A stretch of DNA of 64,000 nucleotides from Pedobacter xixiisoli (GTDB lineage Bacteria > Bacteroidota > Bacteroidia > Sphingobacteriales > Sphingobacteriaceae). This document shows positions 23,475 through 44,625 of the stretch, piece after piece (position 1 is the stretch's first letter; every line of letters starts with the position of its first letter). The DNA lies in NCBI RefSeq assembly GCF_900215335.1, contig NZ_OCMT01000001.1, positions 1,116,001 through 1,180,000 of the forward strand, in the 5' to 3' direction. The translations under genes and the position numbers were made by a program. The notes below the pieces were generated by a model. The model was not told where the DNA came from. It saw nothing but the letters and a program-made list of their open reading frames with translations, and did not search any database.

Positions 23475-23557
23475 TTGTTTAGTTTTATGCGTTGAATTTA
23501 GTGTTTTTGCGGTATTTTACCACAAGTGAGGAAAGATTTAATTTGAAAATTTTTTGA

Positions 23558-23614
23558 CACAGATGCACAGATTAATACTTCTAAGCCTCAATTTAAATTA
23601 TATTTGCATCTGTG
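23558..23614. repeat. Dispersed CACAGAT inverted repeat, copy 1
   Basis: Arms CACAGATGCA (23558-23567) and TGCATCTGTG (23605-23614) surround a 37-base spacer. The left arm continues as a direct repeat of CAGAT (GCACAGATT). The element ends 10 bases from the stop codon of the minus-strand M14 peptidase gene. It is related to copies at 27931, 31662 and 43898. Confidence 0.8.
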
Positions 23615-23624
23615 GCTACAAAAA

Positions 23625-24782
23625 TTAAGTTAACAAATAGCCATCCTTAAAAGCTAAAATGATTTGCTTCTCCATTATTAATTCAAAATTTGCTGCTTTA
23701 TTAAATACGATATCACCTTTCAATTCGCAGTTATTAGCATCGTAAACTTCATAAGCATCACAGAAGCTCAAATCGCCAATATCTTGTATACTGTAACTTT
23801 TAAAAGTGCTCATTCCATCTGTATTTGGGCATTCATCGTAATTGATACCGACACTTACCTTGATATTATTTAAAATAAGGTTATTGATCATTACGTGAAA
23901 AATTTGCTTGTTGTTTTTGGGAATAGCAAAGTAATTTTCAGTCTTTTGATTTTCGTAGTTTTTACTTGCGATAGAAATTAATCCAGATAGGATAGAAGCG
24001 AAGTAATATTTTCTGATTTGCTGTTTTTCAGTATCATCTTGATAACCTCCAGCTTCAATTAAAATGGTAGATGTACCCGCTTTTTGAAAGTTATCACCGA
24101 ATGCCCTCGGCTCATACTCGTCATCAAATAAACCGATGTGATGCGGTAGAATTTGGTCTAATTCTTTAAACATATCAGCTATTACTAGCATCGCATTTTC
24201 ACGAACTTGATTTATAGAAAGCCCTTTATCAAATGCAGGAGCTAAGTATGAAAGTGTAGCTGGTTTTAGTGTTTCATCAACACTCCATAAAGTAGTTTGA
24301 TCGTGTAAGTTAAAACCGAAATGAGGATCAAAATCATTTCTAGCCTGTTTTAAAATTTTTCCTTCAGGTGTGGTAGTTTGTATGAAATCTCTGTTGATAT
24401 CAATCTGTTGTGCGTTACGTCTTGTAAACATAGCTGCGCCATCAGGGTTTACCATTGGAATGATCAATAGTTCGCAATTATCGTTAATCAGTTTTACGGT
24501 TTCATTGTCTTCTTGCAAGAAGTTAAACAGATCTAAAATGGCCATGGTACCAGTAGCTTCGTCGCCATGCATTTGGCTCCATAACAGCACTTTAGTTTTT
24601 CCATTTCCCCATTTTACAGCGTTGATGCTTTTGCCTTTTACAGAAGTACCGAGTTCATTGACTGCAAAAGCTGAAGGTAGTTTTTTAAGTAGGGAGATGA
24701 CATCTTTGTGTTTGAAGAAGCGGTTGGTCAGTGCTTTTTCTTCGAAAGTGATGTAGTCTAATAATATTGAATGTATGGCCAT
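23625..24782 (-). CDS. M14-family zinc carboxypeptidase
   Basis: The 385-residue protein is a metallopeptidase of the carboxypeptidase A fold. Zinc ligands are in MHGDE (His and Glu) and in FGFNLHDQ (His). A substrate-binding NPDG followed by DINRDF and the general-base glutamate in STILIEAGG complete the site. There is no signal peptide, so the protein should be cytoplasmic, where it may trim peptides or amides. A C-terminal region of about 100 residues after the catalytic domain is of unknown role. The start is ATG at 24782, just downstream of an intergenic repeat. Confidence 0.88.
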   Translation of the reverse strand: MAIHSILLDYITFEEKALTNRFFKHKDVISLLKKLPSAFAVNELGTSVKGKSINAVKWGNGKTKVLLWSQMHGDEATGTMAILDLFNFLQEDNETVKLINDNCELLIIPMVNPDGAAMFTRRNAQQIDINRDFIQTTTPEGKILKQARNDFDPHFGFNLHDQTTLWSVDETLKPATLSYLAPAFDKGLSINQVRENAMLVIADMFKELDQILPHHIGLFDDEYEPRAFGDNFQKAGTSTILIEAGGYQDDTEKQQIRKYYFASILSGLISIASKNYENQKTENYFAIPKNNKQIFHVMINNLILNNIKVSVGINYDECPNTDGMSTFKSYSIQDIGDLSFCDAYEVYDANNCELKGDIVFNKAANFELIMEKQIILAFKDGYLLT

Positions 24783-24802: not shown

Positions 24803-24855
24803 AGCGAAGCAATCTTTCTTGTATGAAAGATTGCTTCGCTATGCTCGCAATGACG
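24803..24855. repeat. Short interspersed palindrome with GCAATGACG end
   Basis: A perfect 16-bp stem (24803-24818 with 24825-24840, 6-base loop) is followed by ATGCTCGCAATGACG. The half GATTGCTTCGCTATGCTCGC belongs to a short repeat family I recognise from many bacterial genomes. It lies between the M14 and S9 peptidase genes, which are both on the minus strand. Confidence 0.75.
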
Positions 24856-27930: not shown

Positions 27931-27980
27931 GCCACAGATAAACAGATTTTTAGAATGTAAATCATTGGTGTATCTGTGGC
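27931..27980. repeat. Dispersed CACAGAT inverted repeat, copy 2
   Basis: Arms GCCACAGATA (27931-27940) and TATCTGTGGC (27971-27980) are perfect reverse complements around a 30-base spacer. The left arm continues AACAGATTTT, the same internal direct repeat as the other copies. It lies just beyond the yidC terminator. Confidence 0.85.
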
Positions 27981-28006
27981 AAAAAAAAAATCCCGCAGGT
28001 GCGGGA
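27981..28006 (-). terminator. Rho-independent terminator of yidC
   Basis: On the minus strand the stem TCCCGC, loop ACCT, GCGGGA is followed by ten T residues, 25 bases after the yidC stop codon. Confidence 0.92.
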
Positions 28007-28030
28007 TTCTCAATTATTGTTTTGTTGTTT

Positions 28031-29833
28031 CTATTTTTTCTTCTGGTTAGCTTGTTGTTGCTGCGTACGCATGTATTCTTCTAAACGAGCTTGGAAACCA
28101 GTTTTCTTTTTTTCAACTTTCGGCTTAGCCTTATTATCTTGTAAGATGGCATGAATTTTATCATCATTTACCATCTTTCTAATTAAGAATTGTTGCAAGA
28201 AAGTAAGCATGTTGGCTAAGAAGTAGTAATAGTTTAATCCTGATGGATAGCTATTTAATACCCCTAAGAAAATGATTGGCATAATATAACCAATGTATTT
28301 CATTTGTCCAGTAGCACCAGAAATCTGATTATTGAAATAGGTGTAGATTAACGTAGAAATCGTCATTAAAATACACATTAAACTCAAGTGGTCGCCAATG
28401 AAAGGTACATTGAAACCGAAGTTGATAAAGTTGTCATAAGTAGACAAATCTTTCATCCAAAGGAAACTCTCACCTCTTAACTCGAATAAGTTAGGGAAGA
28501 AGAAGAAGAAAGCCATTACAAACGGTAATTGCAGTAACATCGGCAAACAACCACCAATTGGATTAACGCCAACCTGTTTGTAAAGTTTCAGATATTCCTG
28601 CTGTAAAAGAGTAGGATTATCTTCGCCAACTTTAGCTTTAATTTCGTCCATTTCTGGCTTTAAAACTCTCATTTTAGCCATCGAAACGTACGATTTGTAA
28701 GTTAACGGCGACATAGCAAGCTTCAACAAGATCGTTAATACTAAAATGATTAAACCGTAACCCCAGTTAAAGCCTTCCAAGAAGTTAAACACTGGCAATA
28801 CCACAAAACGATTGATGTATTTTAAAGGCCAGTAACCTAAATCTACTTGTTTCTCTATCTCGTGACCTTGGTCTTTTAAAGTACTGAATTTGTTAGTACC
28901 GAAGTAGAATTTGAAGTTATAGTTCTGAGCGGCCAATTGGTTAAATGGCAAAGTCATATTTGCGCCGTACCATTTAATTTTACCAGGTTCAGTGGAAACT
29001 TTAACCTCTAAGTTCCCTTTATCGAAAGGTACAGTAGGAATTAAAACTGCTGAGAAAAAGTGTTGCTTAAAAGAAAACCATTCGATTTTTCCTTCTGTAA
29101 GTTCTTTTTTCTCGTCTTTATGTAAGTCTAAGTGATCTGGAGTTTCCTCTACATATTTAAAGTAAGGGCCAGAATGTTCTTGCTCTTTTTTAGCATCTTT
29201 TTCTTGTTGCAATAACGTAGTTTCCCAGTTTAAGTTTACGTTATTGCCTTGCAACAGTTGGTTAAACCCAGTTAAATTGATGTTGAAATCTAAATTAGAA
29301 CCATTCGCTGGAAGTGCATACACAAAATCCACATATTTATCTGCGCTATAATTGGCACGCATGGTAACACCATTGCCAGTTTTAGTAGCGGTAAAATATA
29401 AATCGTTAGTGTTGGTAATTTTACCAGCAATATTCAAGTTTAGACCAAACTTGTTTTGGTTTCCATCAAATAAAACTAAAGGCTTATTGCCATAGGTTTT
29501 TTCATTTTTGACTTCTACCGATTGGATTTTACCACCTAAATTATTGAAAGTGATTTTTAAGTTCTCATTTTCTAAAACTGTAGTTTGTTCAGTTCCAGTG
29601 ATATTTCCTCCAAAAGGCCCCGATAATGCTGCTGTATCAACTGTTTTTACAGGGGTAGCTGCTAGTTTTTCTTGGTTTTTAGCAGGTTCTTTAACACCTG
29701 CTCTTTTTAATGAATCTGCTCTTTGTACTTCTCGTTCTTTTTTAAGTTCAGCTTCCGACGGTTTCATTAAGAAAACGCCACCTGCTAAAATAATCATGAT
29801 CAAGAACAGACCCGTGAATGTATTTCTATCCAT
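28031..29833 (-). CDS. yidC: Membrane protein insertase YidC
   Basis: The 600-residue protein has an N-terminal signal-anchor helix (about 8-22), a large periplasmic beta-rich domain (about 60-330) and the conserved Oxa1/YidC core of five helices (about 350-570; MSPLTYKSYVSMAKM, NPIGGCLPMLLQLPFVMAFFFFF, LPLNYYY-type region GLNYYYFLANML). The C-terminus is basic, as expected for ribosome contact. It inserts and folds inner-membrane proteins with or without SecYEG. It lies 20 bases after pyrG on the same strand, an arrangement I have seen repeatedly in Bacteroidota, so the two are probably cotranscribed. Confidence 0.96.
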   Translation of the reverse strand: MDRNTFTGLFLIMIILAGGVFLMKPSEAELKKEREVQRADSLKRAGVKEPAKNQEKLAATPVKTVDTAALSGPFGGNITGTEQTTVLENENLKITFNNLGGKIQSVEVKNEKTYGNKPLVLFDGNQNKFGLNLNIAGKITNTNDLYFTATKTGNGVTMRANYSADKYVDFVYALPANGSNLDFNINLTGFNQLLQGNNVNLNWETTLLQQEKDAKKEQEHSGPYFKYVEETPDHLDLHKDEKKELTEGKIEWFSFKQHFFSAVLIPTVPFDKGNLEVKVSTEPGKIKWYGANMTLPFNQLAAQNYNFKFYFGTNKFSTLKDQGHEIEKQVDLGYWPLKYINRFVVLPVFNFLEGFNWGYGLIILVLTILLKLAMSPLTYKSYVSMAKMRVLKPEMDEIKAKVGEDNPTLLQQEYLKLYKQVGVNPIGGCLPMLLQLPFVMAFFFFFPNLFELRGESFLWMKDLSTYDNFINFGFNVPFIGDHLSLMCILMTISTLIYTYFNNQISGATGQMKYIGYIMPIIFLGVLNSYPSGLNYYYFLANMLTFLQQFLIRKMVNDDKIHAILQDNKAKPKVEKKKTGFQARLEEYMRTQQQQANQKKK

Positions 29834-31661: not shown

Positions 31662-31717
31662 AGCCACAGATACACAGATTTCGCTGTCTAAAAATTTTAT
31701 CTTTGCATCTGCGGCTA
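31662..31717. repeat. Dispersed CACAGAT inverted repeat, copy 3
   Basis: Arms AGCCACAGAT (31662-31671) and ATCTGCGGCT (about 31707-31716) pair with one mismatch. The left arm continues ACACAGATTT, repeating the CAGAT core. It lies about six bases from the stop codon of the minus-strand dehydrogenase gene. Confidence 0.8.
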
Positions 31718-31722
31718 AAAAA

Positions 31723-32424
31723 TTATTTAGTTTTAGTAGGTCTAACCTCAATTTTTGACGGTAAAACATTGGGGTTTAAATTCAATAAATCTACCACCAT
31801 TTGGCCTAAATCCTCTGGCTGGATTTTCCATCCATCTGCGTCATTTGGTTGGTGGTCATTGAAATGAGAAGTTACCGAACCGGGCATAATAGTCGTCGTT
31901 TTTACATCATACTCTCGTAAATCTAACATGGCTGCTTGCGTAAAACCAACTACACCAAATTTAGAGGCGTTATAACCAGCGCCGCCCGCAAAAAAGTTTG
32001 TTCCAGCTAAACTCGCAATAGAAATATAATAACCTTTGTTAGCTTTCAGTTGTTCAACAGATGCTTTTAAAGTATGGAAAACTCCAGTTAGGTTGGTGTC
32101 AATCATTGCGTTCCAATCTTCTAAACTTAACTGGTCAATAGGCCCAAACTTGCCTACGCCAGCATTAGCGATAACGATATCTAACTTACCAAACTTAGCG
32201 ACAATTTCAGCAACAGCAGCTTCTTCGTCTGCATAATTAGCAACATTAGATGCTACAGCCAAAACATTCTCACTGCCTAAATCAGCTTTTGCTTTTTCTA
32301 CATCTGCTAACTTTCTACCTGAAATAGCCACCTTTAAACCTGCATCAACCAATGCCTTAGCAATTCCAAAACCTATTCCTTTTGTGCCCCCTGTAATGTA
32401 GGCAACCTTATTTTCTAAACTCAT
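31723..32424 (-). CDS. Short-chain dehydrogenase/reductase (3-oxoacyl reductase-like)
   Basis: The 233-residue protein is a classical SDR. The NAD(P)-binding motif is TGGTKGIGFG (about 11-20), NANAG-type motif is IANAG (about 85-89), and the catalytic Ser138, Tyr151 and Lys155 (YNASK) are present. The length is normal. The substrate is unknown; basic residues after the glycine motif hint at NADPH. It stands between pyrG and surE on the same strand with its own intergenic spaces, so no functional link is evident. Confidence 0.9.
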   Translation of the reverse strand: MSLENKVAYITGGTKGIGFGIAKALVDAGLKVAISGRKLADVEKAKADLGSENVLAVASNVANYADEEAAVAEIVAKFGKLDIVIANAGVGKFGPIDQLSLEDWNAMIDTNLTGVFHTLKASVEQLKANKGYYISIASLAGTNFFAGGAGYNASKFGVVGFTQAAMLDLREYDVKTTTIMPGSVTSHFNDHQPNDADGWKIQPEDLGQMVVDLLNLNPNVLPSKIEVRPTKTK

Positions 32425-42437: not shown

Positions 42438-43823
42438 TTAATGACTGATTTTATTGATAGCTTCTTCTTCGGCACGGGTATGTTTATGCTTAAACATCAA
42501 TGCAAATAGAACGGTGATAACTAAGGCATAAAGTGCGAAACTCAACCAGATGTTGTGCCAATCTTTAACATCTAAAGCACGGCTTAAACTGCCATCTGCT
42601 AAAACATCGATGCCTTTATTGCCTAAAAATTTACGCAGGTGCTCGTTATTGATATCAGTATTAACTAAGTCTGCGGTAGATTTAATATCTGTGTAGAATT
42701 TGGTGAAATACTTGTCAATCATCCAACCAGATAACAAGCTACCTAAAATAGCACCAAAACCATTTGTCATCATCATAAACAAACCTTGTGCAGACGAACG
42801 TATTTTTGCTGTAGTTGAAGTTTCTACAAATAATGAACCTGAAATGTTAAAGAAATCGAATGCCATGCCGTACACGATACATGATAAGATAATCATCCAC
42901 AATCCACCGGCAGGGTCACCGTAAGCAAATAATCCGAAACGGAAAACCCAAGCTAACATCGAAATCACAATTACTTTTTTTATACCAAAGCGTTTCAAAA
43001 AGAATGGTATAGCTAAAATAAATAAGGTTTCAGATACTTGAGAGATAGAAATAATTAGTGTAGAATATTTTACAACCAATGAGTTGGCATAGATTGGAAA
43101 TAGTTTGAATTCATCTAAAAATACATCGCCGTAGGCATTTGTTAATTGTAACGCACCACCCAAAAACATAGAGAAAATGAAAAATAATGCCATTTTATAA
43201 TTGGCAAATAATTTAAACGCCTCTAAACCCAAACTTTCTACAAAGTTTGCCTTTTCAGATACCGACTTCGTTGGCAAACATTTTGGTAATGTAAATGAAT
43301 AAAATCCTAAAAGGATAGCGCCCACTCCGGCTATATAAAACTGGTTAGCACTTGCCTTACTACCTGTTAAGTTGGTTACCCACATGGCAACAATAAAACC
43401 AACTGTACCCCAAACACGTATAGGAGGAAAGCTTTTTACTACGTCAAATTCACTATTTTTTAAAGTAGTATAACTTATAGAGTTGCTTAATGCGATGGTT
43501 GGCATGTAAAAACACATCGCTAACAAGATAATCCAGAAAAAAGTATGCGGATTATCTACCTGCGGTAAATAAAACATCACACCTGCATATAAAAGATGCA
43601 AGACTGCGTAAAGCTTCTCCGCATTAATCCATTTATCGGCTAAAATACCTGTTATTGTAGGCATAAATAATGAAGCTATTCCCATCGTGGCGAATATGAT
43701 TCCGAAATGGGCTCCGTCCCACTGTTTGGTGCCAAACCAGTAATTGGCAATGGTAATTAACCAAGCAGCCCACACAAAAAACTGCATGAAACTCATGATG
43801 GTTAAGCGTAGCTTAATATTCAT
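42438..43823 (-). CDS. Nucleoside:proton symporter, MFS superfamily (NupG-like)
   Basis: The 461-residue protein has twelve predicted membrane helices. The N-terminus (MNIKLRLTIMSFMQFFVWAAWLITIANYWF) and the block around MPTITGILADKWINAEKLYAVLH match the Nuc_H_symport family PF03825, which takes up nucleosides such as xanthosine or uridine. A longer loop of about 45 residues sits before the last helix. The DUF3667 gene follows closely. The upstream side holds a CACAGAT inverted repeat shared as 3' flank by the nuclease gene. Confidence 0.86.
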   Translation of the reverse strand: MNIKLRLTIMSFMQFFVWAAWLITIANYWFGTKQWDGAHFGIIFATMGIASLFMPTITGILADKWINAEKLYAVLHLLYAGVMFYLPQVDNPHTFFWIILLAMCFYMPTIALSNSISYTTLKNSEFDVVKSFPPIRVWGTVGFIVAMWVTNLTGSKASANQFYIAGVGAILLGFYSFTLPKCLPTKSVSEKANFVESLGLEAFKLFANYKMALFFIFSMFLGGALQLTNAYGDVFLDEFKLFPIYANSLVVKYSTLIISISQVSETLFILAIPFFLKRFGIKKVIVISMLAWVFRFGLFAYGDPAGGLWMIILSCIVYGMAFDFFNISGSLFVETSTTAKIRSSAQGLFMMMTNGFGAILGSLLSGWMIDKYFTKFYTDIKSTADLVNTDINNEHLRKFLGNKGIDVLADGSLSRALDVKDWHNIWLSFALYALVITVLFALMFKHKHTRAEEEAINKISH

Positions 43824-43897: not shown

Positions 43898-43987
43898 CCA
43901 CAGATGCACAGATTTTTATTTCAAAAAAAATGGGAATCAACATTAAATTGAATTAAATACACTAAGCGCTGATTTGTGTATCTGTGG
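43898..43987. repeat. Dispersed CACAGAT inverted repeat, copy 4
   Basis: The longest copy: arms 43898-43914 (CCACAGATGCACAGATT) and 43971-43987 pair over 17 bases with three mismatches, around a 56-base spacer. It ends six bases from the stop codon of the minus-strand nuclease gene. Confidence 0.88.
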
Positions 43988-43993
43988 ATTATA

Positions 43994-44614
43994 TTAATTA
44001 CCTGTGTTTCTTCTATTGATTTCATCCCTAATTCGGGCTGCTTTTTCATAAGCTTCTTCAGCTAAGGCTTTTTCTAACTTATTTTGAAGTTCTTCTGTAG
44101 ATAAACTTTGGAAACCAGAAACTGGATGAGGTGCTGATTGAATTTCTTCAGGGTTAGAAGGATTGGTAATACTTTCCATGTTTTCTAAGAAAAGGAAATC
44201 GTTTCCTTCGATAACAATACCTGCAGATGAAAGTATGAATTCGTAAGTGTAGATTACGGCATTAAATCTTACCGCAATGGCAATGGCATCAGAGGTTCGT
44301 GCATCTATTTCTAGTTGTTCTCCATCTTTGTTGCACATCAGTTTGGCGAAGAAAACGCCATCAACAAGATTGTAAATTAAAACTTCGGTAATTTCTACTT
44401 GGTAAGCTTGTGCAAATGATTTGAAAAGATCATGTGTTAGCGGTCGGGTAGGAGACATCTTCTCGATCTCTATAGCAATGGCTTGCGCTTCGAATGCGCC
44501 AATAATGATAGGCAATCTTCTTCGTCCGTTAACTTCTCCAAGTACCAGCGCATAAGCACCAGATTGAGTTTGGCTATAGGATAATCCTACTATATCGAGT
44601 TTTACTTTCTTCAT
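43994..44614 (-). CDS. Bifunctional nuclease-family protein (BFN/DUF151) with UVR motif
   Basis: The 206-residue protein has the BFN domain (about 1-140; VLGEVNGRRRLPIIIGAFEAQAIAIE and DARTSDAIAIAVRFNAVIY), named after plant bifunctional nucleases. The C-terminus (about 170-205; LQNKLEKALAEEAYEKAARIRDEINRR) is a UVR-type coiled segment like that in UvrB and ClpC. Function in bacteria is not settled. ATG at 44614 is preferred to the TTG two codons upstream. It follows etfA on the same strand but a terminator lies between them. Confidence 0.88.
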   Translation of the reverse strand: MKKVKLDIVGLSYSQTQSGAYALVLGEVNGRRRLPIIIGAFEAQAIAIEIEKMSPTRPLTHDLFKSFAQAYQVEITEVLIYNLVDGVFFAKLMCNKDGEQLEIDARTSDAIAIAVRFNAVIYTYEFILSSAGIVIEGNDFLFLENMESITNPSNPEEIQSAPHPVSGFQSLSTEELQNKLEKALAEEAYEKAARIRDEINRRNTGN

Positions 44615-44625
44615 ATACAAAATTA

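Follow-up and report, generated by a model that had tools for sequence, protein, structure and literature searches.

Dispersed inverted repeats of Pedobacter xixiisoli share the build of the arms that flank GxxExxY nuclease genes

Four inverted-repeat copies in the window

The window (the whole stretch of 64,000 nucleotides that we analysed) is C8:1116001-1180000 of the 4.97 Mb genome of Pedobacter xixiisoli, which comprises 8 contigs. The original prediction reported four copies of an inverted repeat in it, and all four are present, with ends within 1-3 nt of those reported. The copies, their arms, and the neighbouring open reading frames are as follows:

23557-23615: copy 1, inverted arm pair
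23557..23572, plus strand: copy 1 left arm, ACACAGATGCACAGAT, 1 mismatch
23600..23615, minus strand: copy 1 right arm with 2 mismatches; ORF 23625-24782 (minus strand) has its stop codon 9 nt away
27932-27979: copy 2, inverted arm pair
27932..27947, plus strand: copy 2 left arm, 1 mismatch
27964..27979, minus strand: copy 2 right arm with 2 mismatches; ORF 28031-29833 (minus strand) has its stop codon 51 nt away
27986..28011, minus strand: terminator-like hairpin with a T run, between copy 2 and its upstream gene (consensus match only)
31664-31714: copy 3, inverted arm pair
31664..31679, plus strand: copy 3 left arm, perfect
31699..31714, minus strand: copy 3 right arm with 2 mismatches; ORF 31723-32424 (minus strand) has its stop codon 8 nt away
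43898-43987: copy 4, inverted arm pair
43898..43913, plus strand: copy 4 left arm, perfect; ORF 42438-43823 (minus strand) has its start 74 nt away
43914..43971: copy 4 loop, 58 nt
43972..43987, minus strand: copy 4 right arm with 1 mismatch; ORF 43994-44620 (minus strand) has its stop codon 6 nt away

Allowing up to 3 mismatches, the 17-base arm pattern has eight matches in the window, while 100 shuffles gave a mean of 0.25 and a maximum of 2. Three of the copies had been described as ending about 10 bases from a stop codon, and so they do (9, 51, 8, and 6 nt for copies 1 to 4). The loop lengths are not the 30-56 bases proposed: with the arm limits of this analysis they measure 27, 16, 19, and 58 nt. 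The separate hairpin that precedes copy 2 suggests that this copy is not the terminator of its upstream gene. A palindrome of a different family, also terminator-like, lies at 24804-24839 (GCGAAGCAATCTTTC, both arms exact), and strings like it are found inside the loops of some copies elsewhere (L101, L241).

A family of about fifty pairs in the genome

The arm is far more frequent in the genome than the reversed pattern, with 45+46 matches at up to 2 mismatches compared to 3+0; raising the limit to 3 mismatches narrows the excess (166 vs 63 among the matches listed). From 65 fetched genome stretches we assembled 50 inverted pairs of CCACAGATRCACAGAT around unrelated loops of 7-220 nt, so that the family has about fifty members, 42 of them with both arms at no more than 2 mismatches; the set includes 8 pairs with one arm at 3-5 mismatches, and 19 single arms (≤2 mismatches) come on top of it. 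Either arm, read inward, has the consensus CCACAGAT-R-CACAGAT. The original prediction gave each copy one simple arm, which is what the window displays, since there the second CAGAT word of the right arm has decayed and the left arm keeps both. It does not extend to the genome, where both arms normally carry the double CAGAT word and 15 of the 50 pairs are perfect on both sides: the simple arm of the window is a decayed second word.

The two arms of a pair vary independently. The purine at position 9 is chosen separately in each arm (GG 19, GA 10, AG 8, AA 4, and TA 1 in 42 pairs), and across 44 pairs of the window genome 62 positions were altered in one arm only, against 2 altered in both. 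Two other species of the genus that carry the same arm, G033 and G017, behaved alike, with 23 one-arm and 0 two-arm changes in 13 pairs and with 31 and 3 in 15 pairs, respectively. We consequently rejected compensatory pairing of the arms, as one-sided changes dominate and the G/A site is independent. Taking arms with at most 1 mismatch as seeds, a partner arm (0-2 mismatches) was found within the inner 200 nt of 66/81 seeds in the window genome, and within the outer 200 nt of 0/81; the corresponding figures were 19/29 vs 0 in G033 and 13/25 vs 2 in G017. One-sided changes and inner partner arms together indicate that each arm is kept as a sequence and not as one half of a pairing. Among 30 pairs of the window genome we detected no loop homology (mean pair score 8.30, maximum 21, vs 8.45 and 18 for shuffled loops).

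Some copies are embedded in more complex arrangements. At L052 (~3102) and L074 (~3061), a CCCGA..TCGGGACAAGT hairpin occupies the same place in the right arm, as if one repeat had inserted itself into another. L104 (C8:1406288-1406977) consists of tandem units of ~170 nt that all terminate in one and the same decayed right arm, CTACAGATGTACAGAT. In G017, L233 (G017:C10:129220-129264) has two perfect arms in reverse order, pointing apart, with 12 nt between them.

Position of the copies relative to genes

We then classified the gaps that hold copies with a simple ORF caller. Of 49 copies (1 of the 50 pairs was unclassifiable by gene context), 35 are in co-directional gaps, 13 in divergent gaps, and 1 in a convergent gap, compared to 92, 35, and 31 of the 158 copy-free gaps of the same stretches and the window. 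With stricter pairs from three genomes, convergent gaps accounted for 4/67 vs 33/167 copy-free gaps (p = 0.009). The proximity to stop codons seen in the window is general to some degree, 24 of the 46 co-directional copies starting 0-12 nt past the stop codon, yet it goes with a next promoter left free: the next start codon is mostly farther off than the stop codon. Copies occupy the stretch from a stop codon to the promoter that follows, with few in convergent gaps, unlike REPs or terminators. The idea that the repeat had become part of 3' ends does not hold, because copies are scarce in convergent gaps and present in divergent ones, which lack any 3' end.

A shared orientation of the copies relative to transcription, also part of the original prediction, survives as a tendency only. 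In co-directional settings of the three genomes the start-proximal arm was the better one in 22 cases and the stop-proximal arm in 8, with 16 ties (sign test p = 0.016). Between copy and start codon, 14/52 segments contained a TAnnTTTG box, which we take to be the promoter box consensus, compared to 2 on the wrong strand; a fixed spacing between copy and box was ruled out, the distances ranging from 10 to 91 nt. We rejected a terminator role given the gap preferences and the separate hairpin before copy 2, and the stop and start distances add to these in making terminator and 3'-end roles a poor fit. Rfam returned 0 matches at the gathering cut-off for window positions 20000-46000.

An old spread shared between species

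The arm is unevenly distributed in the genus. G017 and G033 have 28 and 41 matches (≤1 mismatch), while 30/36 genus genomes have at most 2. For 17 of 40 loci from these two species, the 65 stretches of the window genome include homologous flanks, and at least 13 of these 17 (at least 11 window-genome sites) show a copy at the same place, at least 12 of them seen in alignments and L229/L054 added from the sequences. Arms were better kept than loops at these sites, a comparison inflated by the fact that both sides had been picked for good arms; the partner-arm count suffers less from this. To judge from same-site copies whose loops have drifted beyond recognition, the spread of the repeat in the window lineage is old.

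The window copies themselves differ in their fate. Copy 2 is absent from the corresponding site in G017 and G033, and G016 holds a CCGCAGAT variant there; in G033 (L245 370-1500) the site is occupied by about 1.1 kb of other sequence. Copy 3 is present in G033, but decayed. The G017 locus L251, which adjoins the gene that neighbours window copy 3, has the changed word CCACATACACACAG in both of its arms, unlike the usual one-sided changes.

Inverted word arms flank GxxExxY genes

Arms of similar build stand around genes of the GxxExxY family (PF13366, PDDEXK_3; TIGR04256). The window genome has two of them and both lie, as seen by eye, between inverted arms of like build, with CCGCAGATT words at one gene and CACCTTAG words at the other. 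Neither has a CCACAGAT arm. Common to the window arms and to the GxxExxY arms are inverted tandem words around a loop, in the order CCRC-word, N, CRC-word, and the two occur in the same genus; they differ in that the loops of the window copies hold no gene. To quantify the association we scored flanking inverted repeats against shifted positions, because mismatched loci share arms and are useless as controls. In the genus, 37/72 loci (the 2 of the window genome, 30 returned by a profile search, and 40 hand-picked from its other matches, which do not make up all matches) exceeded the 95% level of 208 shifted controls and 35/72 fell below; at that scoring one of the two window-genome genes passes (L038) and the other fails (L039). 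We also fetched 80 named GxxExxY loci and excluded 3 whose flanks were too short. Of the remaining 77, 57 exceeded 95% of 285 shifted controls, 43 exceeded the control maximum, and 20 failed. The passing loci include records labelled as Bacteroidota, Cyanobacteria, Acidobacteria, Planctomycetota, Proteobacteria, Chloroflexi, and Treponema, although many are metagenome bins whose taxon labels may err. A strict word motif pointed toward the gene on both sides in 21/77 named loci; pointing away from it, the motif was present on at least one side in 17/77 and on both in 2. Typical arms are TAACCACAAAGACACAAAGAACACCAAG, TTTAACCGCAAAGTTCGCAAAG, and TTAACCACAGATGAACACGGATAAACACAGAT.

Different nucleases go with different words. 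When 43 labelled loci in 10 word classes were mapped on the nuclease tree, 10 changes were needed (the minimum possible being 9), while 300 shuffles needed at least 24. The tree was built by a quick method from 69 proteins (for 3/72 genus loci no motif-bearing frame was obtained) and few columns, with several open forks, and we drew up the word classes with the arms already in view; both points weaken the exact figure but not the direction. There was no clear word at 26/69 loci. Comparing the up-flank of one locus with the inverted down-flank of another, in pairs below 80% identity, scores of 13 or more were reached by 19% of 801 comparisons within clades and by 2.9% of 1469 between clades (medians 10 and 9; 0/1000 permutations). 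By these sequence comparisons, the arm word follows the nuclease phylogeny.

The association extends to whole genomes. In 99 genus genomes, CCACARAKNCACARAK counts (1 mismatch) correlated with GxxExxY counts (Spearman 0.68; 0.10 for the reversed pattern), without correction for phylogeny. All 33 genomes with at least 17 arm matches have GxxExxY, and 0/42 genomes without a strong hit reach 17; we chose 17 as the cut once the counts were known, and 8 genomes whose only PF13366 hit is weaker than 1e-10 were counted as lacking GxxExxY. Among the 57 GxxExxY genomes, 24 stay under 17 arm matches.

A conserved nuclease core

Residues H18, E27, D67, E77, K79, Q91, and Y95 are invariant in 50/50 aligned GxxExxY proteins (52 of the 80 named loci were tried and 2 with a stop were left out), and we take them to be a PD-(D/E)XK core with a QxxxY motif. 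The structure model of the protein (pLDDT 95) is matched best by SSO0001, a Cas4 protein, at Z 9.9 and an rmsd of 4.5 over 103 residues; a restriction-like protein (Z 8.4) and many others at Z ≤7 follow. Solved structures included no sequence relative at E ≤ 1, and Foldseek found no match to the model at E ≤ 0.001. In one report the GxxExxY label stands where a cas4 gene would be expected (PMC8934634).

Gene-bearing and gene-less pairs coexist in relatives

In G067 and G059, the two genomes examined for paired forms, arms of the type CCACNAAGNCACNAAG have 36 and 40 matches; in each genome these include a pair that holds GxxExxY in a gap of 460 or 467 nt, respectively, and 4 or 7 gene-less pairs of the same arm type with gaps of 22-51 nt. 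In these relatives of the window genome, pairs with and without the gene occur together and use a single arm type. The type closest to the window arm is in G117, which has 70 matches to CCACAGATTCGCAGAT (≤2 mismatches; control 0), gene-less pairs included, and a broken-frame GxxExxY (C15:1059528) between CCGCAGATTTGCAGAT and the inverse of CCGCAGATTAGCAGAT. These latter arms contain two words with an 8-nt spacing, the same build as the window arm, and are near but not identical to it. Two G117 sites on different contigs share both arms and loop, from which it follows that the whole unit can spread, unless the loop is a repeat of its own. Since whole units seem to do so in G117, the unrelated loops of the window genome are best explained by age. 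We found no GxxExxY gene with exact CCACAGATRCACAGAT arms in the window genome (G000), G017, or G033, the three genomes that share the repeat: the G017 gene has no arms, and of two hits in G033 one is a gene with AGGATT-type arms and the other is marginal.

Comparison with other repeat systems

The Y1_Tnp family holds RAYTs and IS200 transposases. The window genome has seven Y1_Tnp genes, and 0 of them have an arm (≤2 mismatches) within 1.5 kb; one (L033) has its own palindrome of another kind. Like REPs, REPINs, and BIMEs, the window repeats are dispersed, short, palindromic, and probably non-autonomous units, but their consensus carries no GTAG tag: the tetramer outside the arm is most often TTAG (exact in 31/84 arms), and GTAG in 4/84. 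One account defines REP and REPIN by a GTAG or CGTC tag at one end, and places REPs mostly in unidirectional and convergent gaps (PMC3733652). Unidirectional gaps dominate in the window family too, but its behaviour in convergent gaps is the opposite.

MITE copies share interior sequence with their parent. No such shared interior exists among the 30 loops of the window genome that we compared, and only some G117 copies share a loop. Both MITEs and the TIR families of TIRYTs, as that same account presents them, consist of gene-less terminal inverted arms that coexist with gene-bearing relatives (PMC3733652); TIRYTs, however, are tyrosine transposases and not PD-(D/E)XK nucleases.

A parallel in build is provided by S23p (PF05635) genes, known from 23S rRNA intervening sequences: in this group they too stand between inverted arms of short tandem words, albeit with another protein family (a four-helix bundle), other words, and not the window arms. 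Among loci L135-L164 (23S rRNA IVP/S23p), 22/30 exceeded 95% of 116 shifted controls, with AGTATCAAG, GTTTCAGG, and AAAGACC as arm types. In the Coxiella intervening sequence, tandem heptamers precede the S23p gene and a mobile origin has been discussed (PMC4990558). Within G000-G024, the 15/25 genomes with a strong GxxExxY hit are the same 15 with a PF05635 hit, and the other 10 lack both, which could be either a clade effect or a shared host need and has to be set against the genome-level correlation of arms with GxxExxY.

Discussion

The description of a dispersed, multi-copy, and mobile-looking inverted repeat with relatives in other Bacteroidota is borne out by our data. We consider that the window copies are probably gene-less relatives or derivatives of elements with GxxExxY arms. 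Arms are associated with the gene, the arm word matches the nuclease clade, gene-bearing and gene-less pairs coexist, and the nuclease core is conserved. In the mechanism that we infer, the GxxExxY nuclease would recognise its own word in the two inverted arms and cut or nick there, and repair would copy the arm-bounded unit into new sites, either with the gene (autonomous) or without it (non-autonomous, mobilised in trans); copies would persist chiefly in the interval from a stop codon to the promoter that follows. The window family would once have been served by a GxxExxY of the G117 type. Target-site duplications, clean empty sites, and movement were not seen. What chiefly calls for an explanation is that the arms stay near consensus in the three genomes that share them, in none of which we found a matching nuclease gene: loops have been randomised over the time elapsed since the old spread, and the decay of a dead element does not account for arms that have not.

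A host role of the arms would explain this conservation. Each arm would be bound by a DNA-binding protein, marking the boundary of a transcription unit or acting upstream of promoters; selection would keep the arms while the loops drift, and the likeness to GxxExxY arms would reflect ancestry only. Same-place copies across species with arms kept and loops not, partner arms confined to the inner side, arms that vary alone, the avoidance of convergent gaps, the better-kept start-proximal arm, and the TAnnTTTG box all agree with it, whereas loops and box distances as variable as those observed would be unusual in a regulatory site, G017 and G033 have no copy 2, and most genomes of the genus have next to no matches. 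We regard host sites as an unlikely explanation on balance. Mobilisation by a RAYT (Y1 tyrosine transposase), the sense in which the repeat had been called REP-like, was already weakened and is quite improbable: the high copy number, the inverted pairs, their intergenic position, and the presence of Y1_Tnp genes would suit REPs or REPINs, but not the missing arms near those genes, the rarity of GTAG, the avoidance of convergent gaps, or the unrelated loops. That the repeats act as RNA hairpins, either terminators or 3'-end stabilisers in which arm pairing is what matters, is very improbable, as inverted arms that often start close to a stop codon are offset by the lack of covariation at the G/A site, one-sided changes, copies in divergent gaps and few in convergent ones, and a copy 2 that lies beyond a separate terminator-like hairpin.

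Returning to GxxExxY-derived elements, we tentatively propose a broader picture, which is possible but short of probable. GxxExxY with inverted word arms may represent an undescribed class of mobile elements present in many phyla, in which one Cas4-like nuclease of ~125 residues would co-evolve with its own tandem word of 7-10 nt and leave gene-less arm pairs behind, in parallel with S23p/PF05635 genes, including the 23S rRNA intervening sequences. The window copies would be fossils of one such family, with arms since kept near consensus. Our search of the open-access literature found no description of GxxExxY word arms, and searches with sequence strings were likewise empty.

With this work, an anonymous repeat gains a testable partner in a widespread family of small nucleases, and we found no account of what that family does. 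Should the nuclease recognise the arms, many repeated strings of bacterial genomes, of the CCACAAAG, CCGCAAAG, CCACAGAT, and CCACAGAG types, would be one system with predictable partner genes, and an origin would be suggested for the 23S rRNA intervening sequences, which a study on Coxiella calls unclear in origin (PMC4990558).
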